IMG/VR virus record: IMGVR_UViG_3300028829_001409
Span: 1 to 46,617 of that record
Length of the DNA stretch: 46,617 nucleotides
Reading direction: 5' to 3' (one strand)
Source of the DNA: a virus
Under the pieces are notes generated by a model. That model did no database searches. It saw nothing but the letters and a program-made list of their open reading frames with translations, and was not told where the DNA came from. The translations under genes and the position numbers were made by a program. This document shows, piece after piece, positions 21,840-41,894 of the stretch; within the stretch, counting starts at the first letter, position 1; every line of letters begins with the position of its first letter.

Positions 21840-21843
21840 CTAA

Positions 21844-22602
21844 ATGAAATTTGGCTTAGGAGGAAAGCAATTCATTGAATTTTCTACAGATGTAGAAGGA
21901 CTCGAACGAGTAGCTCCAGTACAAAAATCTACACACTTTACACCTCAATGGTTTAAAGAAATGAAAGATTATATACCCCAACAACCAACACCGGATGGAA
22001 GTGTTCCCGGTAGATATGGTAAATCAGAAGAAACTTCTAAAAAATGGTCTAGTGGTACTGTGAAACGTTGTCCTGCAATAATAGACCTAATTACAGAGGG
22101 ATTTATTATACCAATGTGGTGTGACTTTTTATTGCAAAGAGATAATCAAATACTTGAATACGACAATAAAAATTTTCCTTATGGTATTGAATTTCACAAT
22201 AATCAACAAATACACAACTGGAAATTAAAAAAAGGTGATTTTAGAGAAGGTGTAAAGTTTAACAATCCGTGGAGAATATATACACCACCCGGATATTCAG
22301 TAATGTTTATAGCTCCTTATTACCAGTTTGAACAAAGATTTACAGTATTGCCCGGAATAGTAGAAACAGACAGTTATCATCATATAAACTTTCCTACAAT
22401 AATGCATACTAAAAAAGATACAATTATAGAGAGAGGTACACCATTTATACAAGTTATACCTTTTAAAAGAGATGATTGGAACTTTGATGTGTCAACAATG
22501 ACACCAGAACAAACTAAAGCTGACAGGTCAGAAAAACTAGAATTATCTACAAAATTCAAGAACTCATATAGAAACATAACCCGAAGATTAAGTTCTAAAT
22601 AG
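21844..22602 (+). CDS. Unknown-family protein, copy 1 of 3 (possibly DUF6065)
   Basis: 252 residues. It shares with the genes at 37805 and 39938 a set of motifs in the same order: K-x-C-P-a-h-h-D ... G-a-I-I-P-h-W-x-D, V-K-F-x-x-P-W ... T-P-P-G-x-S, P-G-I-V-E-T-D-x-a-H-x-x-N-a-P, and R-G-T-P-a-h-x-V-I-P-a-K-R. I believe this is the uncharacterised DUF6065 family but could not check. The conserved E-T-D-x-x-H-x-x-N cluster could bind metal. This copy sits among tail genes, the other two inside the oxygenase block, which links that block to the tail. Confidence 0.7.
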   Translation: MKFGLGGKQFIEFSTDVEGLERVAPVQKSTHFTPQWFKEMKDYIPQQPTPDGSVPGRYGKSEETSKKWSSGTVKRCPAIIDLITEGFIIPMWCDFLLQRDNQILEYDNKNFPYGIEFHNNQQIHNWKLKKGDFREGVKFNNPWRIYTPPGYSVMFIAPYYQFEQRFTVLPGIVETDSYHHINFPTIMHTKKDTIIERGTPFIQVIPFKRDDWNFDVSTMTPEQTKADRSEKLELSTKFKNSYRNITRRLSSK

Positions 22603-22608
22603 TATCAT

Positions 22609-22626
22609 TGATTCTAGGGAGAATCA
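22609..22626 (+). promoter_or_regulatory. Hairpin with ribosome binding site in loop
   Basis: TGATTCT-AGGG-AGAATCA: a seven-pair stem whose loop and 3' arm carry AGGGAG, two bases before the ATG at 22628. Part of the site is paired, so it could restrain translation, unlike the fully open loops at 2176 and 9686. Confidence 0.45.
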
Positions 22627-22627
22627 T

Positions 22628-22912
22628 ATGACCGAAGATACCACTAATCCTAAAAAGGAAACATTTGAATATAAACTACTCTCACACGGGGATAAATTGT
22701 CTATGGTTTTAGAAGGTATGTTTAATATGGAACAAGCTTTATTTCAACATAATATGAATAAACTCTCCGAGACACATTCCGATTATGATGAATGGAAATC
22801 TACTGATAAAGACATTAAAAAGGAAATAATGAGACTGCGTTTTGTATATGAAAAAATGGGAGGGAACTGGGAGAATACTCAAGAATTTGATGAGTATGGA
22901 GAACCCGTATAA
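22628..22912 (+). CDS. Small helical protein, unknown
   Basis: 94 residues, charged and mostly helical (DKLSMVLEGMFNMEQALFQH, then KDIKKEIMRLRFVYEKMGG). It is coupled to the following fibre gene by a TAATG overlap. Perhaps a fibre chaperone or connector, but only position suggests this. Confidence 0.6.
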   Translation: MTEDTTNPKKETFEYKLLSHGDKLSMVLEGMFNMEQALFQHNMNKLSETHSDYDEWKSTDKDIKKEIMRLRFVYEKMGGNWENTQEFDEYGEPV

Positions 22913-27000: not shown

Positions 27001-30000
27001 TTACAAATAAAACAATTAATTTTGAAAACAACACAGCAATAATTGAATACGCTGTAACAGTATCAAATGCTTCTGGTGGTAATAAATTTTACTTAGACGG
27101 ACAATTAGCAAGTACTGTACAACTTATACCGGGTGTAACTTACAGATTTGATACATCAGACTCCTCAACATCTGGTCATCCATTTGCTTTATCAGAAACT
27201 AAAGACGGTTCACATGCTAGTGGTTCTAGTTATACACAAGGTGTTACAACTAATGGCTCACAAGGTTCAGCAGGTTCATATCTACAAATAGTTGTAGATG
27301 GTATGACACCTAACTTGTACTACTACTGTACAGCACACTCTGGTATGGGTAATGACGGAATGCTTCGTATTAAGACACAAGATACAGATGATGTATCAGA
27401 AGGTTCTAATAACTTATACTATACAGACGCAAGAGCTCAAGCTGCAATTACAGGTAGTACAGGAATAAACGTTTCATCTGGTGCTGTATCTATAGACAGT
27501 ACTGTTGTTACTGAAACATCTACAGATACTCTTACAAACAAAACAATAAACTTTGAAGATAATACTGCAATAGTAGAGTTCGCAGTCACAGTAGCAAATG
27601 TAAGTGGTAACAAATACCACCTTGATGGAGAAACTTCTGCAAGCATACAATTAATTCCGGGTATAACTTATAGATTTGATACATCAGATAGCTCTGTATC
27701 TGGACACCCATTTGTATTATCTACAACTAAGAATGGTACTCACGCTTCTGGTTCTAACTATACAACTGGTGTTACAACTGTTGGAACTCCCGGAACTTCT
27801 GGAGCTTATACTCAAATTGTTGTTAATGCAGCAACCTCTGATACTCTTTATTATTACTGTTCATCACACTCTGGTATGGGTGGAGACTCAGTTATTTCTA
27901 TTGCAGGTTCTAGTTTATCCGCAAGTACTACTGATGACTTATCAGAAGGTTCAACAAACTTATATTACACCACAGCTAGATGGGATACTAAGATGGCTGC
28001 TGCTGACACAGATGATTTGTCAGAGGGCTCAACCAACCTTTATTATACAGATACAAGAGTTGGTTCATACTTAACAACTAATACATACGCAACACAAAGC
28101 TATGTAAACACACAAGTTTCAAACTTAGTAGATTCAGCACCGGGAACATTAGATACACTTAACGAATTAGCAGCTGCTTTAGGAGATGACGCAGACTTTT
28201 CTACTACCGTAACAAATAGTATTGCAACTAAATTATCCAGTGCTGACTTTAACTCAACCTTTGATACACAATTAGCTACAAAAGATACAGATGATATTAG
28301 CGAAGGTTCTACAAATCTTTATTACACAAATGCTAGATTTGACACACAACTTGGAACAAAAGATACAGATGACCTAACAGAAGGTAGCACTAATCTTTAT
28401 TACACAGACGCTAGAGCACAAGCAGTATCTATAAACAATATACTAGAAGATACTTCCCCACAACTTGGTGGTAACTTAGATATAAATTCAAGCAATATTA
28501 CAGGAATTGGTAATATTGATACAACTGGTGATATAACAATCACATCTACTAGCGATGGTTCAACTGCTGGACCAATTATCAATCTTGTCAGAGATAGTGC
28601 CTCTCCTGCTGACGCAGATTACTTAGGTCAAATTAAATTTAAAGGTGAAGATGATGGCGGAGCTTCTACTGTATATGCAAAGATTACAGGTAAGATTGAT
28701 GACGCTTCCGCTGGAACTGAAGATGGTCTTATTGAATTTGCTACTATAAAAGCTGGTTCAAGCAACATAGCTGCTAGATTAAAAACTACTAACTTCCAAT
28801 TATTGAATGGTACAGGATTAGAAGTTGATGGAAATACAACACTATCCGGAACTCTTAATACACATACAGTTCCTAGCGGTACTGGAACAATAGCTTTAAC
28901 TTCCGATATTCCTAGTGATACAGATGGATTAACAGAAGGCTCATCTAATCTTTACTACACTAATGCTAGAGCAGACGCAAGAATAGCACTAGCTGACTTA
29001 CAAGACTTAGCTAATGTTGGATTCTCTGCACCCGGCTCAAGTGAAAATCAAAAGGTTGTTTCATGGGATGACAGTGCTGGAACATTTGTATTATCTTCAG
29101 TATCTGGTCTATCTGGTTCTGGCGAGACTAACACAGTTTCTAACGTTGGAACAGCTGGTGTTGGAGTATTTAAACAAAAAGCTGGCGAAGATTTTGAATT
29201 AAAGAAAATAAATGCAGGTTCTGCAAAGATTACAATTACTGATGACACTTCTAATAGTGAGATAGACATAGACTTTGGTTCTGTATCAATAGATGATTTA
29301 AGTGATGTAGATACCACAACTTCATCACCTAGTGATGGGCAAGCTCTTAAATGGAACAATAGTGCAAGTCAATGGGAACCCGGAGACGCAAGTTCTCAAG
29401 TTGCACAATTAACTGATGTTACTTTAACTTCTTTAGCTTCCGGAGAACTACTCAAATACAATGGTAGTGCTTGGGTAAACGCAACATTAGATACTGATGA
29501 AGTAACTGAAGGTTCTTCAAACCTTTATTATACAAATGCAAGAGTTCAATCATACCTAACTGGAGGAACTGGTGTAACCCTTTCCGGCAGTGGTGAGTTC
29601 AGTATCGGACAAGCTGTAGCTACAACAAGCGATGTAACATTTAACGACTTAGTAGTATCTGGTGACTTAACAGTTTCTGGTACTACAACTTCTGTAAATA
29701 CAGAAACAATTAACTTAGCTGATAATCAAATTGTTCTTAATTCCAATGCAACTGGCTCTGCTTCAGAGAATGGTGGTATTGAAATTGAGAGAGGTGACGA
29801 TACTAATAAAACACTTATATGGAACGAAAGCTCAGATAAGTGGACAGTTGGCTCAGAGACTTTTGTAGCTGGAACTTTTGAAGGTAATGCTACAGGTATT
29901 ACAACAACAGCTATAACTACTTTGACAGAAGATACATCTCCAGCAGAAGATGACTTCTTAGTAACATTTGATACAAGTGCTTCTGCATTAAAGAAAGTTG

Positions 30001-30815
30001 CAAAATCAAATATCGCAGCAGCAGTTAGCTTCAGTGTTAATGATGAAATGCCTCTTACACTTTCAGACGCAAGTTCAGACCCAATAGAATTTACAAACGT
30101 TGGTACCTCAGCTACAGACATAGACTTAGTTCTGGCTGATGGTTCTAGCGACCCAATTAACATTACAGGCACATCAAACTCCGCAACATCATTTAGAGAT
30201 AGTGATAACGATACAAAGATTGTAGTAGAAGCTACTACTGATGATGACACAATAACAATGACTACTGCTGGAACAGACAGACTTGTTATTGAAAGCACAG
30301 GTGAAGTCAAAGCAAATGGTAAAGACTTAGCTGGTTATTCAGATGGTGTAGAATTTAGCGTTCAACAGTTTAGAGTTACAGCAGACCAAACTACTACAGG
30401 AAGTAATGCACTTGTAGGAAATTGGGAAGTACCAGATGGTAAATTACAAGCTAATTTTGGTAGTAATGTTAGTGAAAGTTCTGCGATATTCTCATTTAGC
30501 AAAACAGGATATTATAAAGTAGAAATTGTAGGCTTAGGTCAAAGTGGTACAGATGGCTCTGCACACCACAATATATATATTGTTGCAAGTGATGATAATT
30601 TTGCAACAACTCCAAGTGGCTCTGATTTTCTTGCTAGAGGTATAACACAAGCAGGTGGTGGTGGAGATAGTGCTTATGCTTCAGCAATTATAGATGTAAC
30701 AGACACAACGAATCATAAAATTAAATTTGAATATTACAACACAGGTGGAAGTTTTGCAGGAAGCACTGACCAAAACAAGACTTATGCGACATTTACCAGA
30801 CTAGGAGATACATAA
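24051..30815 (+). CDS. Giant modular tail fibre with two cupredoxin-like modules
   Basis: 2254 residues built from repeats. Seen in order: a start domain with TDFISISDGGTGAITASAAR; a 65-residue module (V-S-G-T ... N-T-E-T ... E-I-E-R-G ... W-x-V-x-S-E-x-F) three times; a G-[ND]-[VL]-T tetrapeptide run; about 13 copies of E-G-[ST]-x-N-L-Y-Y-T-[DN]-A-R; two about 135-residue modules with blue-copper ligand patterns (H1043, C1093, H1096, M1099; H1219, C1270, H1273, M1276); and a C-terminal jelly-roll-like domain from about 2100 (VEFSVQQFRVTADQTTTGSN to YATFTRLGDT) that is the likely receptor-binding tip. It starts at a TAATG overlap. Confidence 0.85.
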   Translation: MAAKSPIRYVFDTDGNVSEFSEFQATDFISISDGGTGAITASAARTALGLEIGTDIQGYDAELQALSGLTPTDGNFIVGNGSTFIMESGSTVRDSLGLGTSDSVEFNTIQTANLTIGGPSLTLEGATNDSFESTLVVTDPTADRTITFQDATGTVALLSDVTAQDVDFAGDTGTGAVDLDSQTFTIQGTTNEIETSASGQILTVGLPDNVTVGNNLTVTGNLTVSGTQTILNTETLTVDDNTIVLNNNVTGSPSENAGIEIERGTSSNKSLLWDETNDYWTVSSESFVASTFIGNLTGNVTGNVTGNVTGDLTGDVTGDVTGDVTGNLTGNVTGNLTGDTTGNVTATSVLADGVTATTQSASDNSTKVATTAYVDSQVATEDTLAEMNDVTLTSSQNGDFLRYNGSVWINDAVDLATDTVGDFVQSITAGTGISVDVTSGEAQTPTITLSAGLNDLSDITLTSTATGDILRYNGSAFVNEPLNLGTDTEGAYVASLVAGTGIDLSNNTGETATPTITVDLGDFSTSDLAEGTNLYYTTTRFDTAFTGKDTGDLSEGTNLYYTDARADARIAAATTDDLTEGSNLYFTSERVDDRVAALLVDSTSSGIDISYDDTNNQLTLTVDLPEVEDALEDIVNGLVVGGTGITSTYDDTAGTLTLTIPQEVGTSSDVTFNQVTADLVGNVTGNVTGNVTGTVSSITNHDTDSLTEGSTNLYFTNARARGAVSATDSGGDGSFSYDSSTGAFTYTGPSASEVRAHITGGTGVTISSGEIAIGQSVGTSDNVTFNNIDADGNVVIDGNLTVSGTTTTVDTETINLADNVITLNSNATGSATQNGGLEIERGDDSNKTLLWNETDDKWTVGSETFVAGTFEGALTGNVTGTVSSISNHDTDSLSEGSTNLYYTDARVSTYLTGGTGITESSGALSIDFTEFDTDNVVEGTSNLFHTAARARVALSGSTGITYDNSTGAISIDGTVVTETSTDTLTNKTINFENNTAIIEYAVTVSNASGGNKFYLDGQLASTVQLIPGVTYRFDTSDSSTSGHPFALSETKDGSHASGSSYTQGVTTNGSQGSAGSYLQIVVDGMTPNLYYYCTAHSGMGNDGMLRIKTQDTDDVSEGSNNLYYTDARAQAAITGSTGINVSSGAVSIDSTVVTETSTDTLTNKTINFEDNTAIVEFAVTVANVSGNKYHLDGETSASIQLIPGITYRFDTSDSSVSGHPFVLSTTKNGTHASGSNYTTGVTTVGTPGTSGAYTQIVVNAATSDTLYYYCSSHSGMGGDSVISIAGSSLSASTTDDLSEGSTNLYYTTARWDTKMAAADTDDLSEGSTNLYYTDTRVGSYLTTNTYATQSYVNTQVSNLVDSAPGTLDTLNELAAALGDDADFSTTVTNSIATKLSSADFNSTFDTQLATKDTDDISEGSTNLYYTNARFDTQLGTKDTDDLTEGSTNLYYTDARAQAVSINNILEDTSPQLGGNLDINSSNITGIGNIDTTGDITITSTSDGSTAGPIINLVRDSASPADADYLGQIKFKGEDDGGASTVYAKITGKIDDASAGTEDGLIEFATIKAGSSNIAARLKTTNFQLLNGTGLEVDGNTTLSGTLNTHTVPSGTGTIALTSDIPSDTDGLTEGSSNLYYTNARADARIALADLQDLANVGFSAPGSSENQKVVSWDDSAGTFVLSSVSGLSGSGETNTVSNVGTAGVGVFKQKAGEDFELKKINAGSAKITITDDTSNSEIDIDFGSVSIDDLSDVDTTTSSPSDGQALKWNNSASQWEPGDASSQVAQLTDVTLTSLASGELLKYNGSAWVNATLDTDEVTEGSSNLYYTNARVQSYLTGGTGVTLSGSGEFSIGQAVATTSDVTFNDLVVSGDLTVSGTTTSVNTETINLADNQIVLNSNATGSASENGGIEIERGDDTNKTLIWNESSDKWTVGSETFVAGTFEGNATGITTTAITTLTEDTSPAEDDFLVTFDTSASALKKVAKSNIAAAVSFSVNDEMPLTLSDASSDPIEFTNVGTSATDIDLVLADGSSDPINITGTSNSATSFRDSDNDTKIVVEATTDDDTITMTTAGTDRLVIESTGEVKANGKDLAGYSDGVEFSVQQFRVTADQTTTGSNALVGNWEVPDGKLQANFGSNVSESSAIFSFSKTGYYKVEIVGLGQSGTDGSAHHNIYIVASDDNFATTPSGSDFLARGITQAGGGGDSAYASAIIDVTDTTNHKIKFEYYNTGGSFAGSTDQNKTYATFTRLGDT
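24708..24945 (+). repeat. Fibre module, copy 1
   Basis: First copy of the module that starts GNLTVSGTQT and ends near SSESFVAST. It is the most diverged of three copies (others at 26442 and 29661). Confidence 0.7.
24931..25086 (+). repeat. 12-base tandem repeat encoding G-[ND]-[VL]-T
   Basis: About 13 tandem copies of a four-codon unit (GGAAATGTAACT and variants). Most copies differ at synonymous positions, so selection keeps the peptide rather than the DNA. Shorter copies occur near 26090 and 26680. Confidence 0.8.
26442..26672 (+). repeat. Fibre module, copy 2
   Basis: Nearly the same protein sequence as copy 3 (29661) but with many synonymous base differences, so the duplication is old and the protein is conserved. 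Confidence 0.75.
26973..27375 (+). repeat. Cupredoxin-like module, copy A
   Basis: Encodes residues of about 975-1108: VVTETSTDTLTNKTINFE, then YRFDTSDSSTSGHPFALS, then YYYCTAHSGMG. Paired with copy B at 27503. Confidence 0.75.
27503..27905 (+). repeat. Cupredoxin-like module, copy B
   Basis: Second copy, about 60 percent identical by eye in protein, with SGHPFVLS and YYYCSSHSGMGG. All four putative copper ligands are kept in both copies. Confidence 0.75.
29661..29885 (+). repeat. Fibre module, copy 3
   Basis: Third copy of the module beginning GDLTVSGTTT and ending VGSETFVAGTFEG. Confidence 0.75.
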
Positions 30816-31478: not shown

Positions 31479-31808
31479 ATGGCGGTATATACAGCAGCAG
31501 AACTTGCAGAAGTAACTGCGCTTGGAACATCTGAAGCAGAAATTTTCAGTAACAGTAACAAGTGCATTATTAAGAATATTATGCTAGCGAACTATACAGC
31601 AACTGATAGAACAGTAGAAGTCAAAGTTATTCCTACAGGGGATACAACTGGCGACCAACATATCGTTTTTGGCGATGTGACTGTTCAAGCAAATTCAACC
31701 ACAGTTATTGACGTAGCTATGGTTATACCTGCTTCAGCTTCAGTAGCTGCAAAATGTTCAGCAGCGACATCTGTAAATATACATGTTTCCGGCGTAGAGG
31801 TGACCTAA
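31479..31808 (+). CDS. Small beta-sandwich tail protein
   Basis: 109 residues, almost all beta: KCIIKNIMLANYTATDRTVEV, then VFGDVTVQANSTTVIDVAMVIP. This resembles short virion decoration proteins that follow fibres in marine phages. AGGAG is upstream; the start lies in a weak AT hairpin. Coupled to the next gene by TAATG. Confidence 0.6.
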   Translation: MAVYTAAELAEVTALGTSEAEIFSNSNKCIIKNIMLANYTATDRTVEVKVIPTGDTTGDQHIVFGDVTVQANSTTVIDVAMVIPASASVAAKCSAATSVNIHVSGVEVT

Positions 31809-33148
31809 TGCCTATTATTGAACCAGAGCCAATCTTTTTAGATAGACTTGGCGGAGATGAAATATACGGATTTGGACAAGACGGAAATGTAACTTTAACA
31901 TCTAATACAACTCTTGCTAGAGATATGTACTATGGTGATTTATCAATTAACGCTGGTGTTACCTTAGATACAAATGGTTATCGTGTATTCGTTAGTGGAA
32001 CTTTAACATTTGCAGACTCAACTTCAAGAATTGGTAGATTTACAACTGTAACAACTGCTGGAACTCTTAAAGGTGGTTTCGCAAAAGGTGTTGCAGCAAC
32101 AGATACTCTAGGTGGTAAATCTGGTTCACAAGACCAATCAACACACGACGGTAATCAATTCTTTGAAGGTGAAAACGAAATGTTTAATCTATCTGTCGCT
32201 ATTGCTGGTCATGCTATTGATATGGATACAGGAACTTATAAATTTATAGGTGGAGGTTCTGGTGGAGGAGACGGAGCAATTACTGCTAATGCAGCAGCAG
32301 GTGCAGATGGAGGAGACTCTAACTGGGCTGATTATCAAACTGTTCAAGCTGACGGAGGTAAAGGTTCACCGGGAAATGCTGCTACAGCAGGTACAGGAGC
32401 AGCTGGAGGTGGAGTTGTTTTAGTTTTAGCAAAGACTGTTGTAGGAGATGGAACAGTAAGAGCTGACGCAGATGATTCTGTAGCTGGTACTGATGGAACA
32501 GCGGGTGCGCCTGCACCAGACGCTTCTACACCGGGTAATACAGTTCCGGGTAATACAAATACTCACCCCGGTAATAATTATTCTTATGGATATAGCTATG
32601 GGTATTCTTACGGGTACTCTTATGGCTATAGCTATCCGGGTAACACAAATACACATCCGGGAAATAACTACTCATATAGTGGTTCTAATCCACATACACA
32701 TTATCACTGGCATGGATTTACAGCTAATAACACACCTACAGGTTTTTATCATTATCATTATGCACACTCGCACCCATATACAAACTATGGTTCTAACCCA
32801 ACTAACTACGGTTCTAACCCAACTAATTATGGTTCTAACTCTGGAGCAAACTATGGTGCTAACTACGGTGCTAACTATGGCTCTAATCCAACTAACTATG
32901 GTACAAACCCTACTAATACAAATCCTACTGTTTATCACACAGGAGGTGCTGGAGGGGCTGGTGCAACAGCTTCAGACGGATATAACGCAGGTGGGGGAAC
33001 AGTCGTCCTAGTTACAGGAACTAAACCTTTGCCTTCTGGACTTACTCTTGCCGCAGCAGCAGGAACTGCTGGAACAGGAACAGCAGGAGCAGGAACAGTC
33101 GTAACAGTATACAATATCGACGCAGACGATACAGACCCGGGAGCTTAA
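31808..33148 (+). CDS. Glycine-rich adhesin with His-x-His cluster
   Basis: 446 residues. The start at the TAATG overlap is chosen because the N-terminus (MPIIEPEPIFLDRLGGDEIYG) aligns with that of the next gene; an in-frame ATG 54 bases upstream is rejected. Residues 1-85 are a fibre-attachment-like domain, then Gly-rich loops (GGGSGGGDGA; GTAGTGTAGAG), YSYG repeats (258-276), a histidine-rich stretch (H296, 298, 300, 302 and 315, 317, 320, 322), NYGSNPT repeats (about 326-373), and a Gly-rich end. Gly-rich tip adhesins and iron-binding HxH motifs are known from T4-type fibres. Several X-Pro-Gly sites lie between residues 235 and 285. Confidence 0.72.
   Translation: MPIIEPEPIFLDRLGGDEIYGFGQDGNVTLTSNTTLARDMYYGDLSINAGVTLDTNGYRVFVSGTLTFADSTSRIGRFTTVTTAGTLKGGFAKGVAATDTLGGKSGSQDQSTHDGNQFFEGENEMFNLSVAIAGHAIDMDTGTYKFIGGGSGGGDGAITANAAAGADGGDSNWADYQTVQADGGKGSPGNAATAGTGAAGGGVVLVLAKTVVGDGTVRADADDSVAGTDGTAGAPAPDASTPGNTVPGNTNTHPGNNYSYGYSYGYSYGYSYGYSYPGNTNTHPGNNYSYSGSNPHTHYHWHGFTANNTPTGFYHYHYAHSHPYTNYGSNPTNYGSNPTNYGSNSGANYGANYGANYGSNPTNYGTNPTNTNPTVYHTGGAGGAGATASDGYNAGGGTVVLVTGTKPLPSGLTLAAAAGTAGTGTAGAGTVVTVYNIDADDTDPGA
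32578..32638 (+). repeat. YSYG tandem repeat
   Basis: Nine or so alternating Tyr-Ser-Tyr-Gly units inside the adhesin, with codon variation between units. Confidence 0.85.
32783..32925 (+). repeat. NYGSNPT / NYGAN tandem repeat
   Basis: About eight units of 12-21 bases (AACTATGGTTCTAACCCAACT and shorter forms) in the adhesin; low-complexity Asn/Tyr/Gly/Pro. Confidence 0.85.
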
Positions 33149-33149
33149 T

Positions 33150-33815
33150 ATGCCAATAATAGAATACGGAAATGCAGCAATACCTACAGACTTTGAAACT
33201 TTTGATGTAATACCAGACTCAATATATGGCTCTGGTATGGATGGAAACGTAACAATATCATCTAACACATCTCTTACAAGAGATATGTTTTATAACAACC
33301 TAACTGTAGACCCCGGAATTGTTTTAGATACCGCAGGGTTCAGAGTATTTGTAAGAAATGTTTTAGCTTTAGCTGCAACATCAACAAATCAAGGCGATAC
33401 AAAGATAGGTAGAGTTGGTGGCGTTTCCTCAACCGGGACTTTGAAGCCCGGAGGTCTTGCAGCCGTCACCAATTCCCTAGGTGGAAATGGTAACGGATAC
33501 ACTGCAACCGCCCCAGATGAAGGTGCTGAATATTTTAATCATCCAGACTTAGCTGTACAAGGAATTGTTGTTCACGCTGGACAAACTACACCAGACCCGT
33601 TAATGGGAGGAGCAGGAGACTCTGTCAATTATGGTGGAGGAGTTGTAGTATTATGTGCTAGAAAAATACAAGGTTATGGGACAATAGAAGCTAGTGGTGA
33701 AACAACTACTGGTGGTGGAGTTATATTTATAGTTTCACAAAACATACCTTTAACAGGAGTTCTAACCGACGTAACAGGATACGCTTCCGGTACAGTCAAG
33801 ACATTCAAGGTTTAG
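33150..33815 (+). CDS. Second adhesin, paralogue of the preceding gene
   Basis: 221 residues. The N-terminal 80 residues match the previous protein (MPIIE; GMDGNVTISSNTSLTRDMFY; GFRVFVRNVL), but the Tyr/His/Asn-rich centre is absent. The C-terminal part is Gly-rich with GGGVVVLCARKIQGYGTIEA, matching GGGVVLVLAKTVVGDGTVRA of the longer paralogue. Likely an alternative or minor tip protein from gene duplication. Confidence 0.7.
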   Translation: MPIIEYGNAAIPTDFETFDVIPDSIYGSGMDGNVTISSNTSLTRDMFYNNLTVDPGIVLDTAGFRVFVRNVLALAATSTNQGDTKIGRVGGVSSTGTLKPGGLAAVTNSLGGNGNGYTATAPDEGAEYFNHPDLAVQGIVVHAGQTTPDPLMGGAGDSVNYGGGVVVLCARKIQGYGTIEASGETTTGGGVIFIVSQNIPLTGVLTDVTGYASGTVKTFKV

Positions 33816-33816
33816 C

Positions 33817-34698
33817 ATGGCTACTGTAAGAATTCATTACAGCAGAGCTGATAGCAATCAATCTGATTATGACCTTTGGTATTACTTTCATAATATGGAG
33901 CAAATAGACCATGAAGAATTAGCAGATTATATAAACGATTATCCTAGAACAAAAATATCTTTTGGTAGCAATGATTACGTAGATATTGATACAGGAGATA
34001 ATACAAAATTACAATGGTATATTAAACGAAAAGACGGAGTTTCTGAACATAACATGGAACTTTGTAATTATGGAGAACTAACACACACTAACTTATGTGT
34101 ATTTTGCTACCAGCAAGGATATCAATGGGAAATTGATTTAAACATACTTCCTAAAACAGAATTTTATATAAATAATACAAGTCCTTACCTTTATAAAACC
34201 TCGGATTATTCATCTATATATGTAGTAGGCATATCAACTATTGGTAGTGAAGAACTAGATGGTGACGGAGATAATGATATTCCTGTAGAAGATGAGAAGA
34301 TAAGGCTTTTTTATGATATAGCTAATTATAAAGATATAGTAATACCAGAAAATGAGAAATGGGTAACAAAATGGGAGCCGTACTCACAATATTATAAAAA
34401 CACAGTAAATAGGATTCAGTTGTTATACTTATTAAATAAATCTTATACAGTAGGAGAAAATGATATGGATATATCAATAGACGCTGACGCATTGCAAGTT
34501 GAGAAAGATGACGCAAAACAAATGCTTGAAAAAGCAGTTGCTAACTGTCTTTATAAACTTGGTGAAGATATCGCAGCTTTTGATGAGGACGCTTTTATAG
34601 CAGATGTTGACGCATACAAAGCTACAAAAAGTTCTACATTAGACGCAACAATAGATTATCTTAAAACATCAATCGACAGCTTAAACGCATTAGCGTAG
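33817..34698 (+). CDS. Tail fibre-region protein, unknown
   Basis: 293 residues. The first half is Tyr/Asp-rich and beta-like (IHYSRADSNQSDYDLWYYFH); the last 90 residues are helical (DDAKQMLEKAVANCLYKLGED, then TIDYLKTSIDSLNALA). The length and position after the adhesins suggest a fibre component or assembly helper. No family recognised. Confidence 0.6.
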   Translation: MATVRIHYSRADSNQSDYDLWYYFHNMEQIDHEELADYINDYPRTKISFGSNDYVDIDTGDNTKLQWYIKRKDGVSEHNMELCNYGELTHTNLCVFCYQQGYQWEIDLNILPKTEFYINNTSPYLYKTSDYSSIYVVGISTIGSEELDGDGDNDIPVEDEKIRLFYDIANYKDIVIPENEKWVTKWEPYSQYYKNTVNRIQLLYLLNKSYTVGENDMDISIDADALQVEKDDAKQMLEKAVANCLYKLGEDIAAFDEDAFIADVDAYKATKSSTLDATIDYLKTSIDSLNALA

Positions 34699-34715: not shown

Positions 34716-35183
34716 ATGCGAACAGTATTCTACATCCCAGAAGGGGATGAAGTAGAAGACTACAAAGAAGAGTGGGAAAATAAAACAGCCGAAGTACATA
34801 CTGGTATTTCACCCAATATAAAAGATTATGTTGATGACCCTAGTATTGCTCAATGGGTACATATACCCGAGTTTAAACATATGCTCGCACCTAATAACGA
34901 ATCTAGCGGTGTATATTTTCAAGTAGCTTACATAAATGACTTTGCTGATAGAGATAACTTACCTCAATATCATTGTGAAGTATGGACAAAAAACTTAGAT
35001 AACCCTAGTGAAGAACAGGTTAAAGCTGATACATGGATTATGCAATATGACATTGGTCCTAATTTCTTCCATACTGACCATGTAAGATTAGATGTAGGAT
35101 GGTATGATTTAATTGTAACAATAGATGGAGAAGAAGTAGATAGTCACGAAATATCTATTTATGAAAGTTATGAAGAAGAATAA
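34716..35183 (+). CDS. Acidic beta-rich protein, unknown
   Basis: 155 residues with a strong AGGGGGG ribosome site. Three Trp and many Asp/Glu; the end (GWYDLIVTIDGEEVDSHEISI) reads like an Ig-type strand pair. It lies between fibre genes and the oxygenase block and overlaps the first oxygenase by 23 bases, so it may be a partner or substrate, but this is speculation. Confidence 0.55.
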   Translation: MRTVFYIPEGDEVEDYKEEWENKTAEVHTGISPNIKDYVDDPSIAQWVHIPEFKHMLAPNNESSGVYFQVAYINDFADRDNLPQYHCEVWTKNLDNPSEEQVKADTWIMQYDIGPNFFHTDHVRLDVGWYDLIVTIDGEEVDSHEISIYESYEEE

Positions 35184-35886
35184 TTTATGGAAAAGAGTAG
35201 AACCTAAAGAAATTGTAAAAGGTGTCTGGTCGTGGGAGAATTGTCTAGAAATTCCAGACGGAGTAATAGACATTATGGATAGCGAAGTAGACGCATGGGT
35301 TCCTACTCTTACAGAAGATGATTTTAAAAGAAACGATTCTGTTCAATCAGTAGTACTTGCTAATGGACCAATAAGGTTTAACCCAGAAGATAATTTTAAC
35401 AGGAATGAGTCACAACAATTCTTGAAACAAGTACAAAAGAATGTGTTAGATAAAATAGCTAAATACTTAGAAATGTTTCCAGAAGTTTCTAGAGAAATCA
35501 ATTGGATGGAGAACTGGCAATATATAACATATAGACCACCTAAGCATATGACTTATCATAGCGATAATCATTCTACAAGAAATCCTGCGACTAATCAGCA
35601 CTACCCTGCACCTTACTTTAGAAGAATTACTGCACTTACCTACTTAAATGATAACTTTCATGGTGGAGCATTAGATTTTAGATATTTTCCCGAAGTAGCA
35701 CCTTACAAACCACCAGCTGGTAGTGTAGTTATTATGCCTAGTTCTTACATGTGGTCACACGCTACTACACCATTACTTAATGGTCGAAAATCTGCTTTCT
35801 TAGTTTCTTGTGCAAGTCATTATGACGTAGCAAGTGAAGAAGCAGGAGTAGATATGAAATATGTTAAAGGGAGAGAATTAAGATGA
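35161..35886 (+). CDS. Fe(II)/2-oxoglutarate oxygenase 1, prolyl 4-hydroxylase-like
   Basis: 241 residues with a full jelly-roll oxygenase signature: H133-S-D135 (TYHSDNH), GGALDFRYF, PAGSVVIMPSSYMWSHATTPL with distal H200, and R209 for the 2-oxoglutarate carboxylate. These residues bind Fe(II) and cosubstrate, and the enzyme would hydroxylate a protein or small molecule. The layout is that of the P4H superfamily. An in-frame ATG nine bases later is an alternative start. It opens a run of oxygenase genes joined by ATGA or longer overlaps. Confidence 0.85.
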   Translation: MKVMKKNNLWKRVEPKEIVKGVWSWENCLEIPDGVIDIMDSEVDAWVPTLTEDDFKRNDSVQSVVLANGPIRFNPEDNFNRNESQQFLKQVQKNVLDKIAKYLEMFPEVSREINWMENWQYITYRPPKHMTYHSDNHSTRNPATNQHYPAPYFRRITALTYLNDNFHGGALDFRYFPEVAPYKPPAGSVVIMPSSYMWSHATTPLLNGRKSAFLVSCASHYDVASEEAGVDMKYVKGRELR

Positions 35887-36560
35887 AAAAGTATGCAGGA
35901 GTTATAGAAGTATATGACGATTTCTTTTCAGAGGGACAAGCTGAAAAAATTATAGAAGCAGCAGAAGCCTTAGATAAGTCTAATTTAACTTATGGATTTA
36001 AAGACGCAAGCATAGGTAAAGGACATAAAGGCGGAGAAGTTAGAAGTAACTTGTTGATGAGTATTTCTGATATAGCTTACGCCCCTACAGAAGCTAGAGA
36101 ATACAGAGACGCTGTTAAAAGTGGACAAGAAAAACTGTTAATAGACTTTAGAAATATACAAGATTTATTGTTAAAAAGAATGCAACACTATGTAAATGAT
36201 TACACAAAGAAGTATGAGTTTCCTATATTGTTTGATGAAGGGTATCAGTTACTAAAGTATGGTAACGGACAACAGTACAAAGGCCATTCTGATTATGCGC
36301 CTCATATACCTAGATATTTGTCCGCTTTGATACTTTTAAATCCACATGAGTACGAAGGTGGCGGAACATATTTTCATCATTTTGAAGAAATGATAAAACC
36401 AGAAAAGCCTGCTTTAGTTTTGTTTCCTAGCAATTATGCTTACACGCACCAAGCTATGCCTGTTGTTAGTGGTCATAAATATGCAGTTGTTACTTGGTTA
36501 GGACACCCAATGGACCTTAAAGACATGCCGGATATATATAAACAGGAAATGCCACAATGA
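35883..36560 (+). CDS. Fe(II)/2-oxoglutarate oxygenase 2, prolyl 4-hydroxylase-like
   Basis: 225 residues. The N-terminus (VYDDFFSEGQAEKIIEAAE) is the typical P4H start. The iron and cosubstrate residues are H135-x-D137 (GHSDYAP), H189 (YAYTHQAMPVV) and K199. GGGTYFHHF sits between them as expected. Overlaps both neighbours by four bases. It is about as diverged from oxygenase 1 as from cellular P4Hs, so this is not a recent duplication. Confidence 0.87.
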   Translation: MKKYAGVIEVYDDFFSEGQAEKIIEAAEALDKSNLTYGFKDASIGKGHKGGEVRSNLLMSISDIAYAPTEAREYRDAVKSGQEKLLIDFRNIQDLLLKRMQHYVNDYTKKYEFPILFDEGYQLLKYGNGQQYKGHSDYAPHIPRYLSALILLNPHEYEGGGTYFHHFEEMIKPEKPALVLFPSNYAYTHQAMPVVSGHKYAVVTWLGHPMDLKDMPDIYKQEMPQ

Positions 36561-37120
36561 GTAACTATATAAATGCAATTAAAATGTCGAACCTGTATCA
36601 AGGTAATCAATTAGAAGAACTTAAATATTGGCTAGATAATGAAACACCGCATAGCTCGGGGTGGAATGAAAGTCCCGATGGAACTCATATGGTAAAGCTA
36701 TGTGAAGAATTAAATACATATCATAAAGTCCTTACTGATAAGAGTAGAGAAACGTTTGAAATACACAACTTATTGCCTACGTTCGCTACGTTAAGTTGGT
36801 ATGAAGCTGGTGTAGAAAAATCACCACATACTGATACTGGTCCTGCACAATATACGATACTATACAACTACTTTTCTGAATTTCCACTAAAATTAACTTA
36901 CGGAGATGACGAAATTCTTCTACAAAATGAAGAAGCTGTAGCTTACTGTGGTGGTGACGTTAATCACTCAGTAGAGTCAGTAGATGGTATCAGCATTAGA
37001 TTACATTTTAATTTCGCAACACCGGATAATTATTATTTCATATTAGGAAATTCTACTAAAAATGGATTTGAATTCCCTTCTGGTAGATTAGAGAACGAGG
37101 TAGAACAAAATTGGCTATAG
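36557..37120 (+). CDS. Fe(II)/2-oxoglutarate oxygenase 3
   Basis: 187 residues. H91-T-D93 (SPHTDTGPAQYTILYNY), H137 (GGDVNHSVESVDG) and R148 make a complete Fe(II)/2-oxoglutarate site in a short jelly roll, with no clear P4H N-terminus. The substrate is unknown. It overlaps oxygenase 2 by four bases. Confidence 0.8.
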   Translation: MSNYINAIKMSNLYQGNQLEELKYWLDNETPHSSGWNESPDGTHMVKLCEELNTYHKVLTDKSRETFEIHNLLPTFATLSWYEAGVEKSPHTDTGPAQYTILYNYFSEFPLKLTYGDDEILLQNEEAVAYCGGDVNHSVESVDGISIRLHFNFATPDNYYFILGNSTKNGFEFPSGRLENEVEQNWL

Positions 37121-37803
37121 AACGACAAAACTTTAGATGTGGTGTTGTAATTGATTATGACAACGCAGACATATACGAATCAAGAGTAGAAGAGATAGGT
37201 CACATAAATCCCTCTTTAGAATTTTGGTTATTTCATAATGCACCGGATATTGATAATGCTTTAATTGTTGGTGCAGGATTTGGATTATCTTCCAAACAAT
37301 TAGCTCAAGAAGGAACTACTGTAACATCAGTAGAGCCACAATCAGATAGGTTTGCTTTATTAGAAAGCAATGTTCCGGAAAGTACAAACATTAACAAGAT
37401 GTGTAGTTCTTCAGCTGGAACTACTGATTTAGTATTCTTTGAAGACAACAAATCTGGCGGTGCAATAAATAAAGCTATGGGTGACACAAGCGAATCTGTA
37501 GAAGTTATTACCGTAGACAGTTTAGATTTAACACTTGACTTAATGCTTGTTTATGCAAACGGTAATGAATTAGATGTTATTGATGGTGCAAGTGAGACAC
37601 TTAGTAGCAATCCTAACATGAAAATCATACTTAGATGGATACCAGACCTCATTGATGATGTTGACGCTGCTGTTGCAAAACTAAATGGTCTTGGTAAGAC
37701 TATCAAAATTATTCACTGGAACAATGATGATACAATTACATTTAAAGATGTTGATGATGATTTGTTAAAAGCTATACAAGTAGCAGACTTAATAATGGAG
37801 TAA
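37111..37803 (+). CDS. FkbM-like SAM-dependent methyltransferase
   Basis: 230 residues from a TTG start (a CGAGG site lies ten bases upstream). The SAM-binding glycine motif is NALIVGAGFG (residues 49-58), and the acidic end of strand 2 is VEP (E75). VEVITVDSLDL then DLMLVYANGNELDVIDGASETL matches the FkbM order, but the usual K-x-D-x-E-G-x-E strand is altered to V-Y-A-N-G-N-E. FkbM-type enzymes methylate hydroxyls on sugars and other small groups. Its place after three hydroxylases suggests that it acts on a hydroxylated or glycosylated product. Confidence 0.72.
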   Translation: MAIERQNFRCGVVIDYDNADIYESRVEEIGHINPSLEFWLFHNAPDIDNALIVGAGFGLSSKQLAQEGTTVTSVEPQSDRFALLESNVPESTNINKMCSSSAGTTDLVFFEDNKSGGAINKAMGDTSESVEVITVDSLDLTLDLMLVYANGNELDVIDGASETLSSNPNMKIILRWIPDLIDDVDAAVAKLNGLGKTIKIIHWNNDDTITFKDVDDDLLKAIQVADLIME

Positions 37804-37804
37804 A

Positions 37805-38614
37805 ATGAAAAAATGGTGGGAGGCCAAAGAATATAGTAGGTTATTGGAAGTAAAGAAACATAAAGTCGGCGATGATAAAATTCAATTCCTTACTTCAAGC
37901 CCAGAGTATGTGGACTTAGCTCCACCTAAACCTGCAAGCGAATTTATACCTGCGTATTACAAACAACTACAAAGAGAATGGTCAGAGATGAGAGGAGACG
38001 GTAGTTGGAACTCTGTACCCTATAAAGACCACTCAATGAAAAAATGTCCTACAGTAAAAGATATTATGTTTAGTGGTTATATCATACCTTTATGGTTAGA
38101 CCTTAAGATAAGTCATGATGAAAAGACTGGCTTTAATTGGTATAACAAACATGCTTTTGAAGATACAATTACATATCATAAACCACAATCGATAGGTAAC
38201 CTACCGATACAGTCAGAATCTTTTAATACAGCTTTAAAGTTTGCTAATCCTTGGGATATAGTGACACCTCCGGGTTGGTCTGTACTTATTACACAACCTT
38301 GGTATCACAGAAATTGGGAAATAGAAATATTTCCTAGTGTTGTAGAAACAGATAGTTACCACCAAATGAACATTCCATTTTTATATCATGGTCGGGGTGA
38401 AAGAATATTTAGACAGGGTATGCCTTTAATACAGGTAATACCTATTAAAAGAGACGGTTGGGACTTAGAAAATTTTGAGTCAAGAAAGATGGATGAAGAG
38501 GAAAAAGAATACTATGCTAAGAGTAGAGCTGGTGAGAGAACTAGACAAAATGGTTGGTACCGTTGGTTGACTCAGCAAAATAAGAAAAGATGGAAAGATG
38601 AGGGAATAATATGA
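37805..38614 (+). CDS. Unknown-family protein, copy 2 of 3 (possibly DUF6065)
   Basis: 269 residues; motifs as in copy 1 (21844): MKKCPTVKDIMFSGYIIPLW, ALKFANPWDIVTPPGWSVL, FPSVVETDSYHQMNIP, RQGMPLIQVIPIKRD. The start reads LTSSPEYVDLAPPKPASEFIP, shared with copy 3. It is the longest copy, with a Tyr/Trp-rich C-terminus. No catalytic motif of a named family is visible. Confidence 0.7.
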   Translation: MKKWWEAKEYSRLLEVKKHKVGDDKIQFLTSSPEYVDLAPPKPASEFIPAYYKQLQREWSEMRGDGSWNSVPYKDHSMKKCPTVKDIMFSGYIIPLWLDLKISHDEKTGFNWYNKHAFEDTITYHKPQSIGNLPIQSESFNTALKFANPWDIVTPPGWSVLITQPWYHRNWEIEIFPSVVETDSYHQMNIPFLYHGRGERIFRQGMPLIQVIPIKRDGWDLENFESRKMDEEEKEYYAKSRAGERTRQNGWYRWLTQQNKKRWKDEGII

Positions 38615-39453
38615 AATGTCCTGTACCAAGACACGGTTATCAGTTACCAAAACTAACAGATATATGGTCTAAAAAGCTAAGTACTATAAGTAGGGAAATG
38701 CCAGAAGTAGCATTTACTTTACCTAGACCTAATCAACAGTGGGGACAACTAGAAAACAATGAAGCTAGAGTAAGTCCTCCTATAAATTTTAAGACACCAA
38801 GTAAGTTTGTAAAAGCACCTAATGGTTGTGTATCTACACAGTTTATGCGTAACCGAATGTTTGAAGTGTACTTTCCATGGTCACATGTGAAAATAGAATT
38901 GATGAAAAATCAGTTTGTTGATGAAGTAGATAGATTTGCAGGATGGACAACTTCATCACGTTATTATGGTGCAGTAAAACATCATGGACCATTTGATGAT
39001 GTAATTATGGAAGAAAAGGAAGCTTGGGGCTCTCCGGATAAACCTGTATTGCAGGTTGCACTACCTATAATGTTATTTTCAGATGACCCCGAAGTTTGGA
39101 TGGATGTTATCCCAAGTGATAGGAATGCTGGTCAAAACTTACCTGTATCTACTATACCGGGCTTTATGCCTATACACTCTTGGTCAAGAGGATTATCTTG
39201 GGCTTTTGAGTGGACAGATATGAACAACTTAGAACTAAATTTGAATCACGATACTGTAATGTTTAACTTACTGTTTAGTAAGCCTGTAAAGATTAAATAT
39301 GTTGAATGGAACGAAACATTTAGCAAAGCTTGGAATCAAATAAGTCAATCTTCTGTCAATCGCAGAGATACAAATATGTTATATCCAGACGCATTAGAGA
39401 GAAGACCTAAAACACTACTACCTAAAAAATCATGGTTCTCCAAGCTAAATTAA
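38611..39453 (+). CDS. Unknown protein of the oxygenase block
   Basis: 280 residues. I do not recognise the family. A possible far relative of the unknown-family genes around it, since it has a similar order of Trp/Pro-rich strands (MFEVYFPWSHVKIEL; PVLQVALPIMLFSDDPEVWMDVIPS; VMFNLLFSKPVKIKYVEWNE). It overlaps both neighbours (ATGA at the start, 22 bases at the end). Confidence 0.6.
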   Translation: MKCPVPRHGYQLPKLTDIWSKKLSTISREMPEVAFTLPRPNQQWGQLENNEARVSPPINFKTPSKFVKAPNGCVSTQFMRNRMFEVYFPWSHVKIELMKNQFVDEVDRFAGWTTSSRYYGAVKHHGPFDDVIMEEKEAWGSPDKPVLQVALPIMLFSDDPEVWMDVIPSDRNAGQNLPVSTIPGFMPIHSWSRGLSWAFEWTDMNNLELNLNHDTVMFNLLFSKPVKIKYVEWNETFSKAWNQISQSSVNRRDTNMLYPDALERRPKTLLPKKSWFSKLN

Positions 39454-39938
39454 TAGATAACGTATTCCCAGAAAAAGTTTTTGAACAACTAGTATCAAGA
39501 TGTCAAAGACAACACAAAAGGTTTCTATACACAGAAGATTTTGGTAGATACTTTGTTAATGACTTTGAATGGTTGCCGCTAAAAAACTTTGTACAACCAC
39601 TAAGAGATATGGCTAGAGAAATATTTGAAAGTGATACTTTAGAGCATAGTTACTCTATATTCGCACACTATGAAGGTGAAGAAGCAAAGCTTCCAAAACA
39701 TAAAGACAATAATGCTTGTACCTATACTTTAGACGTATGTTTATATCAAGATACACCGTGGTCTCTATGGGTAGAGGATAAAGAATATTATCTAGAACCT
39801 AATCAAGGTTTAGCATTCTATGGTGAAGACCAAGAACATTGGAGAGAAGAATTTCCAAATAAGCAGACAAATAAAGTAGGTCAGTTGTTTGTTCATTTTG
39901 TAGAACCTACACATTGGTTTTTTACAGGAGATAAATAA
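39432..39938 (+). CDS. Fe(II)/2-oxoglutarate oxygenase 4
   Basis: 168 residues, a short oxygenase with H90-K-D92 (LPKHKDNNACTYTLDVCLY), H136 (EDQEHWREEF) and a basic residue at K144 or K148 for 2-oxoglutarate. The order L-D-V-C-L-Y, then W-x-L-W-V-E-D, then L-x-P-N-Q-G-L-A-F-Y-G matches the family. TAATG overlap with the next gene. Confidence 0.78.
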   Translation: MVLQAKLIDNVFPEKVFEQLVSRCQRQHKRFLYTEDFGRYFVNDFEWLPLKNFVQPLRDMAREIFESDTLEHSYSIFAHYEGEEAKLPKHKDNNACTYTLDVCLYQDTPWSLWVEDKEYYLEPNQGLAFYGEDQEHWREEFPNKQTNKVGQLFVHFVEPTHWFFTGDK

Positions 39939-40681
39939 TGAAGTCAATAAAAGGTAACAATATAAGATTCTATACGCAGATACCTGCATTAGTAGATTTA
40001 GCACCACCAGTCCCTGCAAGTCAGATGATACCGGATTGGTTTAGGAAACTACCTATGGATTTACCTAGAGCAGACCATAAACCTTTTCCTGTTTTAGGAC
40101 CAATACTTAAGAAGTGGTCATCACATACAATTAAGAAGTGTCCCGCAGTAGTTGATTACTTTGCAGAGGGTTACATTATACCTTTGTGGTCTGACATATT
40201 AATTCAAAGGCATGGAGAAGACTTTCATTTTGAAACTAATCACGATGGTGGTATAGGTAGCACAATAGAGTTTCACGACGAAAATCAGTTTAAGACATAT
40301 CCTTTTAAGAGAAAAGATTTAAGAAAAGCTGTAAAGTTTACAAGTCCTTGGTTTTTTGAAACACCTCCGGGATGGTCAATGTTATTCATACCACCACTAC
40401 TACATCCTAATGATGACTTTAGTTTATTCCCCGGCATTGTAGAAACAGATAATTTTCATCAAGTAAACTTTCCGGGAATCTGGCACAGCGAAGGAGATAG
40501 GATACTACAAAGAGGTACACCCTTTCTACATGTCATTCCTTTTAAAAGGTCTAAACATAAGTTACAAGTGACAGAGTTTTTACAGAAGGACTACAAAAAT
40601 AACGACACTGAAAGTTTTAAATTACGTAGTAAAATGACTGGTGGGTATAGAGATATGACAAGAAAAAATCGTAAAAAATGA
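39938..40681 (+). CDS. Unknown-family protein, copy 3 of 3 (possibly DUF6065)
   Basis: 247 residues with the same motif order as copies 1 and 2: IKKCPAVVDYFAEGYIIPLW, AVKFTSPWFFETPPGWSML, FPGIVETDNFHQVNFPGIWH, RGTPFLHVIPFKR. Closest to copy 1 in the last half. It directly precedes the ferredoxin gene and overlaps it by four bases. Confidence 0.7.
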   Translation: MKSIKGNNIRFYTQIPALVDLAPPVPASQMIPDWFRKLPMDLPRADHKPFPVLGPILKKWSSHTIKKCPAVVDYFAEGYIIPLWSDILIQRHGEDFHFETNHDGGIGSTIEFHDENQFKTYPFKRKDLRKAVKFTSPWFFETPPGWSMLFIPPLLHPNDDFSLFPGIVETDNFHQVNFPGIWHSEGDRILQRGTPFLHVIPFKRSKHKLQVTEFLQKDYKNNDTESFKLRSKMTGGYRDMTRKNRKK

Positions 40682-40941
40682 AAGTTTGGATAGACCAAGA
40701 CTTATGTACAGGTGACGGCCTTTGTGCAGAAATAGCACCAGATGTTTTTACTATGAAAAATGATGGCTTAGCATACGTTCAAGAGAGTGTTGGTAATTTT
40801 GGTGCACTTAAAATATTTAGTGCTATTGATGGTAATGACCAAGGTGCAGAAGGCTTAGCAAGAGTTCCAGAGGGTCAAGAAGATATAGTTACAGAGTCAG
40901 CAGAAGAATGCCCGGGAGAATGTATTTTTATAGTACCATAG
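40678..40941 (+). CDS. Ferredoxin with CX2DX2C...CP cluster motif
   Basis: 87 residues. MKVWIDQDLCTGDGLC gives C10, D13 and C16; the third cysteine is in EECPGEC (C78-P), with C82 extra. A PDVFTMKNDGLAYV segment between them is typical of the small single-cluster ferredoxins of Actinobacteria and Pyrococcus, where the cluster is [3Fe-4S] or a [4Fe-4S] with Asp as ligand. An about 25-residue insert makes it longer than usual. It could feed electrons to an oxygenase; 2-oxoglutarate enzymes do not normally need a ferredoxin, so a role in keeping iron reduced or a partner outside this window is possible. Confidence 0.82.
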   Translation: MKVWIDQDLCTGDGLCAEIAPDVFTMKNDGLAYVQESVGNFGALKIFSAIDGNDQGAEGLARVPEGQEDIVTESAEECPGECIFIVP

Positions 40942-40944
40942 AGT

Positions 40945-41091
40945 ATGGTCAATTTATACGAATTAGAATGGGAACTTCTAAAAAGAAGTAAAGTTACTGA
41001 TAGAGCTCCTAGAAGTATTATGGGTGATAAAGAAATAAGTCATGACTATGAATTACTTACATTTGATAAAGAAGAAAAGAAAGAATCATAA
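40945..41091 (+). CDS. 48-residue small protein, unknown
   Basis: Frame MVNLYELEWELLKRSKVTDR... with a highly charged tail, ending inside the 3' end of the opposite-strand transferase gene (46 bases convergent overlap). Starts three bases after the ferredoxin stop, so it is probably part of the same transcript. No clear function. Confidence 0.5.
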   Translation: MVNLYELEWELLKRSKVTDRAPRSIMGDKEISHDYELLTFDKEEKKES

Positions 41092-41894
41092 ACTTCTTTG
41101 TCGTACACGTTCATTAAATAATCTGCTTCTTCTTTTAAAAGAAAACTATCAATACCTACTCTTTTGCCGTGTTCTTCATGGATATGTTCATAATACAAAT
41201 GACAAAGTAATGGGTACGCTATATTAGGGCTTATTAACTTAAAACCATTATTCTTTAAATTATAGTCTTGTATTGGTTCTTCAGACCAAAAGAAAGAATC
41301 ACGGTTCAATCCAGAGTATTTACCAAATTCTTTTGTACCAAAAGCAAAATGTGCAGAAAACTTATTATCAAAATACTCTTCATCTGTTTTTATTTCTTTA
41401 GGGTTCCAGTTAGGTAGCCAACTACAGTATGTTCTTTCTTCTACAAACTCTGCAAAGTATATACCTTTACCTAGAGGATATCTACCTTTTGGCTCATAGG
41501 AAGGCAATAAACCTGTAAGAATAGTCTTATCATCGTGTTTGTCTAGCATACGAATAAGATGTTCGTCCCAAAAGTCACAAAACCAAGTATGTGAGTCTAT
41601 CTGCAATACATAATCTTCATTATCGTAGTTAGATTCTGTTATATACCTACCCTTACCAACACCTAATAAGTCTTCGTGATATGTCTGCATAGTTACCTTG
41701 AAATCACATATTTTAGAATATTTGTCTAGATATGCTTCTAATTCATTCTTAGCTACTTCACTTTTGTAGGTAAGGCAAATACTAAACACTAATCTTTTGG
41801 GATACGCTGCTTTTTTGATAGCGTCTTCTATAGTATGTGTTAATTCAGAATCATCTAAAGCGGGTATTTTAATAAAGATTTTCTTATTATTCAT
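41046..41894 (-). CDS. GlcNAc-transferase, GT60-like (Skp1 hydroxyproline type)
   Basis: 282 residues, the only clear gene on the - strand. It starts with the family pattern IFIKIPALDDSELTHTIEDA and KRLVFSICLTY. The metal/nucleotide-sugar motif is YVLQIDSHTWFCDFWDEHLI (D100-S101-H102), and later FFWSEEPIQDYNLKNNGFKL, then SPNIAYPLLCHLYYEH, matches the S-E-E ... L-W-x-x-G-a ... P ... H-L-a order of these enzymes. The founding member adds GlcNAc to hydroxyproline of Skp1 in Dictyostelium. Next to prolyl-hydroxylase-like genes this is suggestive. Its start codon is only 14 bases from the start of the divergent + strand gene. Confidence 0.8.
   Translation of the reverse strand: MNNKKIFIKIPALDDSELTHTIEDAIKKAAYPKRLVFSICLTYKSEVAKNELEAYLDKYSKICDFKVTMQTYHEDLLGVGKGRYITESNYDNEDYVLQIDSHTWFCDFWDEHLIRMLDKHDDKTILTGLLPSYEPKGRYPLGKGIYFAEFVEERTYCSWLPNWNPKEIKTDEEYFDNKFSAHFAFGTKEFGKYSGLNRDSFFWSEEPIQDYNLKNNGFKLISPNIAYPLLCHLYYEHIHEEHGKRVGIDSFLLKEEADYLMNVYDKEVYDSFFSSLSNVSNS

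Follow-up and report, generated by a model that had tools for sequence, protein, structure and literature searches.

What does a compact block of enzyme genes do directly behind the tail fibre genes of a phage? The question is raised by a marine virus of bacteria, IMG/VR record IMGVR_UViG_3300028829_001409, analysed here as one stretch of 46,617 bases (the window). The block comprises nine + strand open reading frames (ORFs), g1 to g9 (35161–40941), faced by one − strand ORF (41046–41894), and its products include 2-oxoglutarate (2OG)-Fe(II) oxygenases. The linkage of these genes to the fibre genes is the solid part of the answer, and unrelated cyanomyoviruses show it too. Its likeliest meaning is fibre modification: the best explanation, held with slightly better than even confidence, is that the block oxidises, and here would also methylate, the phage's own fibre proteins as its presumed substrate.

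The ORFs exist as described in the original prediction, made from the bare sequence, which had pictured nine adjacent, mostly overlapping + strand genes opposed by a transferase gene. Neighbours within g1–g9 overlap by 4, 4, 10, 4, 22, 1 and 4 bases, one pair lies 1 base apart, and the start of g1 overlaps the preceding gene by 23 bases. No terminator-like site was found on the + strand from the fibre genes through g9. Purifying selection acts on each of the nine genes: against relatives, the ratios of nonsynonymous to synonymous polymorphism (pN/pS) are 0.07–0.41. The features are as follows.

21844..22602, + strand: PHROG 7084 copy in the tail region (PHROGs; same site in 15 other contig stretches)
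31808..33148, + strand: Gly-rich fibre protein with Asn/Tyr/Pro/His repeats and an invariant His-rich core (alignment, composition)
33150..33815, + strand: second Gly-rich fibre protein (66–86% identity in relatives)
33817..34698, + strand: fibre-region protein, role unknown (position in window and relatives)
34716..35183, + strand: small protein of 155 residues ahead of the enzymes
35161..35886, + strand: g1, 2OG-Fe(II) oxygenase (Pfam; H133-x-D135, H200 and R209 invariant)
35883..36560, + strand: g2, 2OG-Fe(II) oxygenase (Pfam; H135-x-D137, H189 and K199 invariant)
36557..37120, + strand: g3, oxygenase-like (PHROG 2954; H91-x-D93 and H137 invariant)
37111..37803, + strand: g4, FkbM-like methyltransferase (NCBIfam TIGR01444)
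37805..38614, + strand: g5, PHROG 7084 protein of a family with dUTPase-like fold (PHROGs)
38611..39453, + strand: g6, unknown family, probably with dUTPase-like fold (predicted model)
39432..39938, + strand: g7, oxygenase-like (PHROG 2954, 3531; H90-x-D92, H136 and R138 invariant)
39938..40681, + strand: g8, PHROG 7084 protein with dUTPase-like predicted fold (PHROGs; model)
40678..40941, + strand: g9, 4Fe-4S ferredoxin (Pfam; C-x2-D-x2-C...C-P motif)
41046..41894, − strand: GT60-type glycosyltransferase (PF11397), an optional neighbour (Pfam)

The block lies directly behind the fibre genes in the window, as had been proposed, and likewise in its relatives. A scan with g8 gave 52 loci in which the block keeps its order, as far as each contig reaches, with the fibre genes before it and the exonuclease and lysis genes after it. 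For the reverse test, starting from the fibre gene, 37 IMG/VR loci were re-fetched, 33 of them with at least 8.5 kb downstream. Seven core genes (g1, g2, g4, g5, g6, g8 and g9) follow the fibre gene in 33/33 loci; because some of these come from near-identical phages, the 33 cannot be taken as independent events. Of the 33, 29 contain g7, 23 contain g3 and 8 have the transferase within reach. The block is therefore one co-inherited set and not random cargo. Of the single modification pathway that had been proposed, the co-inherited set stands, and its action on the fibres is what we infer. The GT60-like transferase, counted at first as a member, has to be removed from the core: sought in 16 whole records, it is present in 8/16, at differing places, so it is not a fixed part of the block.

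PHROG 7084, the family of g5 and g8, occurs in cyanomyoviruses and haloviruses. In all, 373 viral stretches carrying it were confirmed and 80 of these read. A scan with cyanophage sequences found 211 viral relatives, and the best 80 of 211 were read. These best 80 cyanophage-type loci hold a flavin halogenase (80/80), 2OG oxygenases (79/80), a small chaperone-like gene (74/80) and a Gly-rich gene (69/80); most of the missing genes belong to loci cut off upstream, and L209 differs in order. The usual order is Gly-rich fibres, small gene, halogenase, PHROG 7084 and oxygenases. Sf-FP1 follows this plan throughout, its tail fibres being Gly-rich and its oxygenases including a JmjC_2 match (1e-19), and the isolates syn9, Syn10, S-RIM44, S-CREM1, P-TIM40 and Sf-FR1 share it; Syn10 is the source of the VirX1 halogenase (PMC8407142). 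In the complete genome of syn9 (177 kb), the three sole Gly-rich genes (28.9–32.3 kb) directly precede the module, whose oxygenases (37.1–44.8 kb) make up 11 of the 16 oxygenase-like ORFs; a simple binomial estimate for this clustering, 4e-12, is over-optimistic because tandem duplication can cluster oxygenases.

The window carries the same association, its Gly-rich fibre genes being closely followed by PHROG 7084 and several oxygenases. It resembles the cyanomyovirus cluster (syn9 gp38–gp54; Syn10) in the upstream Gly-rich fibres, PHROG 7084 and the overlapping 2OG-oxygenase genes. The cyanomyovirus cluster differs in its one or two flavin halogenases and its up to about a dozen oxygenases, including JmjC; no flavin halogenase was found in the window by tblastn with cyanophage halogenases (best E 0.15), and no homologue of g4, g6 or g9 was found in the phage collection. 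Cyanophages thus have a sister version, in which a halogenase takes the place of the methyltransferase and ferredoxin, and the earlier statement that this combination was undescribed in phages went too far. In many cyanophage-type contigs (L178, L179, L181, L182, L187 and similar loci), one or two further halogenase genes, pointing the other way, stand at the far end of the row of oxygenases. Fibre-side oxygenases occur without PHROG 7084 as well: in ACG-2014f, a collagen-repeat gene and a tail fibre gene enclose a glycosyltransferase and an oxygenase, and in HTVC027P three oxygenase-like genes adjoin a tail-collar gene.

Published accounts assign phage 2OG oxygenases to metabolism, to DNA repair or to 2OG/NtcA control, and take the halogenase for a means of antibiotic protection (PMC3037559, PMC9964418, PMC9146016). 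Metabolic cargo, in which the oxygenases and ferredoxin tune host 2OG, iron or redox and the fibre-side site is an insertion hot spot, is how papers on cyanophages and pelagiphages see such genes (PMC3037559, PMC9964418, PMC9146016, PMC9599517). It is an unlikely account of this block: in all 33 loci the set and its order stay constant behind the fibre gene, where a hot spot would vary more, and the linkage recurs in unrelated phages that share an unusual family next to Gly-rich fibres.

Judged by their sequences, g1 and g2 are 2OG-Fe(II) oxygenases, matching 2OG-FeII_Oxy_3 of Pfam with E values of 4e-9 and 8e-14. In alignments of 13–16 IMG/VR homologues per oxygenase gene, the H-x-D...H facial triad is invariant in g1, g2, g3 and g7. 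At the position that anchors 2OG, about 10 residues past the last His, g1 has R209 and g2 has K199, both invariant, whereas the alignments of g3 and g7 show no invariant Arg or Lys at the usual distance past the distal His; in g7, R138 is invariant, as is H136. The four intact H-x-D...H...R/K sites of the original prediction are thus complete in two of the four proteins, g1 and g2, while g3 and g7 keep the H-x-D...H part without a fixed R/K.

These last two proteins are probably 2OG-Fe(II) oxygenases too. They are not recognised by Pfam and are matched by PHROG 2954, g7 also by PHROG 3531, both labelled 'ferrochelatase'. The label covers short H-x-D...H oxygenase-like proteins here and also at L123:14486–15028, and g3 and g7 suggest that it can do so more generally. 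In pelagiphages, 'ferrochelatases' always adjoin oxygenases (PMC9599517), and the published ferrochelatase genes of pelagiphages or seasonal marine viruses may rest on such labels.

Which residues might such enzymes meet in the fibres? The first fibre gene, whose ORF opens at 31754 and whose conserved start is at 31808 (Met19), encodes a protein with, in alignment, a middle part of Asn/Tyr/Gly/Ser/Pro repeats flanking an invariant HTHYHWH...YHYHYAHxHP core. Its 141-residue repeat region contains 26 Asn, 25 Tyr, 13 Pro and 11 His, all residues modifiable by known 2OG hydroxylases or halogenases. The closest solved structures to g2 are prolyl 4-hydroxylases (E 2e-8), with PKHD-type hydroxylases also among the nearest. 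Protein substrates are pointed to by this match of g2, by JmjC_2 in Sf-FP1 and by the fibre-flanked transferase and oxygenase of ACG-2014f. Oxidation of fibre proteins is favoured because of the position of the block, its co-inheritance and the prolyl 4-hydroxylase relatives of g2.

The ferredoxin and FkbM-like methyltransferase calls were upheld. g9 matches the 4Fe-4S ferredoxins (E 2e-18) and keeps the C-x2-D-x2-C...C-P cluster motif, as in Pyrococcus-type ferredoxins; its best structure match is 1siz. g4 reaches 38.9 bits with TIGR01444 (FkbM), above the NCBIfam cut-off of 37.7, and scores below the Pfam cut-off with PF05050. The optional transferase matches PF11397 with 68.8 bits (E 8e-19; Pfam cut-off 21). 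FkbM and GT60-type enzymes, ferredoxins and flavin halogenases often belong to natural-product or glycan pathways, and PKHD-type hydroxylases stand close to g2, so that synthesis of a small molecule, or modification of host surface glycans or proteins, for instance against superinfection, has to be weighed. It is quite unlikely, as Pfam, PHROGs and NCBIfam revealed within the block no genes for carrier proteins, adenylation or sugar nucleotides, and the link to the fibre genes would be left unexplained.

The remaining proteins have a less familiar character. g5, g8 and the ORF at 21844–22602 are all PHROG 7084, in agreement with the earlier call of one family with two block copies and a third in the tail region. 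DUF6065 (PF19541) gives 22.1 bits with g5 and 23.2 with g8, below the Pfam gathering cut-off of 26.6, and 'DUF6065' as a literal literature query found no paper. For a model of g8 built by AlphaFold2 on 25 sequences (predicted local distance difference test, pLDDT, 76), dUTPases and dCTP deaminases rank first (Foldseek E 7e-4; VIA-align Z 10.3, 3.3 Å over 131 residues); for that of g6 (pLDDT 67), dUTPases again rank first, more weakly (Z 8.7, 2.6 Å over 115 residues). According to these models, PHROG 7084 proteins have a dUTPase-like fold and g6 probably has the same. Kinship of g6 to PHROG 7084 was unsupported by profile comparison (hhalign probability 0.1), and only the predicted folds suggest it. 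Profiles of PHROG 7084 and g6 compared with solved structures gave nothing useful, and a pattern scan confirmed no relatives of PHROG 7084 in bacterial or archaeal genomes.

The likeness to the dUTPase/dCTP deaminase superfamily does not extend to the catalytic motifs. Among 25 members of the family, self-made patterns, used without a positive control, matched none for dUTPase motifs 2, 4 and 5, and two each for motifs 1 and 3. The halovirus, cyanophage and window copies have in common the Cys of KCP and one His, Lys, Asn and Arg. Because the dUTPase motifs are essentially absent and the family has its own invariant residues, PHROG 7084 would combine the modelled dUTPase-like fold with a site of its own. 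The tail-region copy keeps its place in relatives (64–69% identity, L106–L120), which argues for an old paralogue and not a stray insertion. In some phages a second g8-like copy, 28–30% identical, follows g8.

The predicted fold also bears on DNA or nucleotide modification, in which the dUTPase-fold proteins would act on nucleotides and the oxygenases on bases. In S-RIM4 and the haloviruses (HF2, HSTV-2), PHROG 7084 stands alone, with no oxygenases, and these lone copies (L058:7908–8792, L059:7899–8768, L056:9935–10729) sit close to genes for ribonucleotide reductase or thymidylate synthase. Such a function is nevertheless very unlikely for the block, given the near absence of dUTPase motifs by the self-made patterns and the match of g2 to protein hydroxylases. 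Moreover, 20 proteins tested from an 85-kb relative included ordinary DNA methylases and an S-adenosylmethionine synthetase, and no base hydroxymethylase.

Under fibre modification, the block would be expressed together with the tail fibres, whose proteins would be oxidised during assembly. g1, g2 and probably g3 and g7 would hydroxylate Pro, Asn, Tyr or His in the upstream Gly-rich fibre repeats; the FkbM-like g4 may then O-methylate the hydroxyl groups and, in phages carrying the transferase, the GT60-like enzyme may add a sugar. g5, g6 and g8 would bind the substrate or assist in assembly, offering the fibre to the enzymes, or would themselves be enzymes of some other chemistry, and the ferredoxin g9 may hold the iron enzymes in the reduced state. 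The sister module of cyanomyoviruses would add the flavin halogenase. The order of events, like the parts given to g5, g6, g8 and g9, is our inference.

Several points weigh against this scheme. Gene position is no proof of substrate. Clustering of oxygenases can arise from tandem duplication, and in syn9 some oxygenase genes lie elsewhere, next to uvsX and uvsW. Lone PHROG 7084 copies occur near nucleotide genes. No modification of fibres is known to us for which a dUTPase-like protein or a ferredoxin is required. The linkage may have arisen independently just twice, in the window lineage and in the cyanophages.

Partial parallels exist. Chlorella virus PBCV-1 has a prolyl 4-hydroxylase-type 2OG oxygenase (cited in PMC9301287), presumed to modify the virus's own repeat proteins. 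PBCV-1 is, in contrast, a eukaryotic virus with a single enzyme and no dUTPase-fold partner, methyltransferase or ferredoxin. In the Dictyostelium Skp1 pathway, a prolyl hydroxylase acts first and a GT60 N-acetylglucosamine transferase follows; a prolyl 4-hydroxylase-like oxygenase and a PF11397 transferase are likewise found side by side here, but the transferase is optional in the window lineage and the target is not Skp1.

More tentatively, and rather short of probable, these loci could represent a widespread, so far undescribed class of fibre-tailoring systems in unrelated phages, combining protein oxygenases, an exapted dUTPase-fold partner and a halogenase or a methyltransferase–ferredoxin pair to alter the side chains of adhesive fibres; the native role of VirX1 would then be explained as well. 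To our knowledge, no natural substrates are established for many marine-phage 2OG oxygenases and cyanophage flavin halogenases, and we know of no paper naming the cyanophage cluster as a fibre system. The fixed link to fibre genes offers a concrete, testable substrate and could account for the natural role of VirX1-type halogenases; if true, protein hydroxylation and halogenation would join the means by which phages diversify their host-contact proteins. One passage of PMC9301287 touches on prolyl hydroxylases together with collagen-like fibres of viruses and describes the use as cryptic; within the open-access literature, this passage alone was found to link phage oxygenases or halogenases to tail fibres, and no paper was found describing the cluster as a fibre system.

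The fibre genes themselves vary. In the protein of 31808–33148, NYGSN-type and PGNNYSY/YGYS-type repeat blocks swap sides of the His-rich core between phages, an exchange that looks as if it took place by recombination within the repeats. A tie between the presence of g3 and the order of the repeats failed by eye, the g3-bearing L015, L017 and L019 having the other order. Contig L060 is 99.9% identical to the window over 11844–30281 and diverges just before the end of the gene for a 2254-residue protein; where the window has 30282–30811, L060 (18439–19381) carries a small tail-fibre-chaperone-like ORF, so that a second fibre-like protein has its tip swapped.

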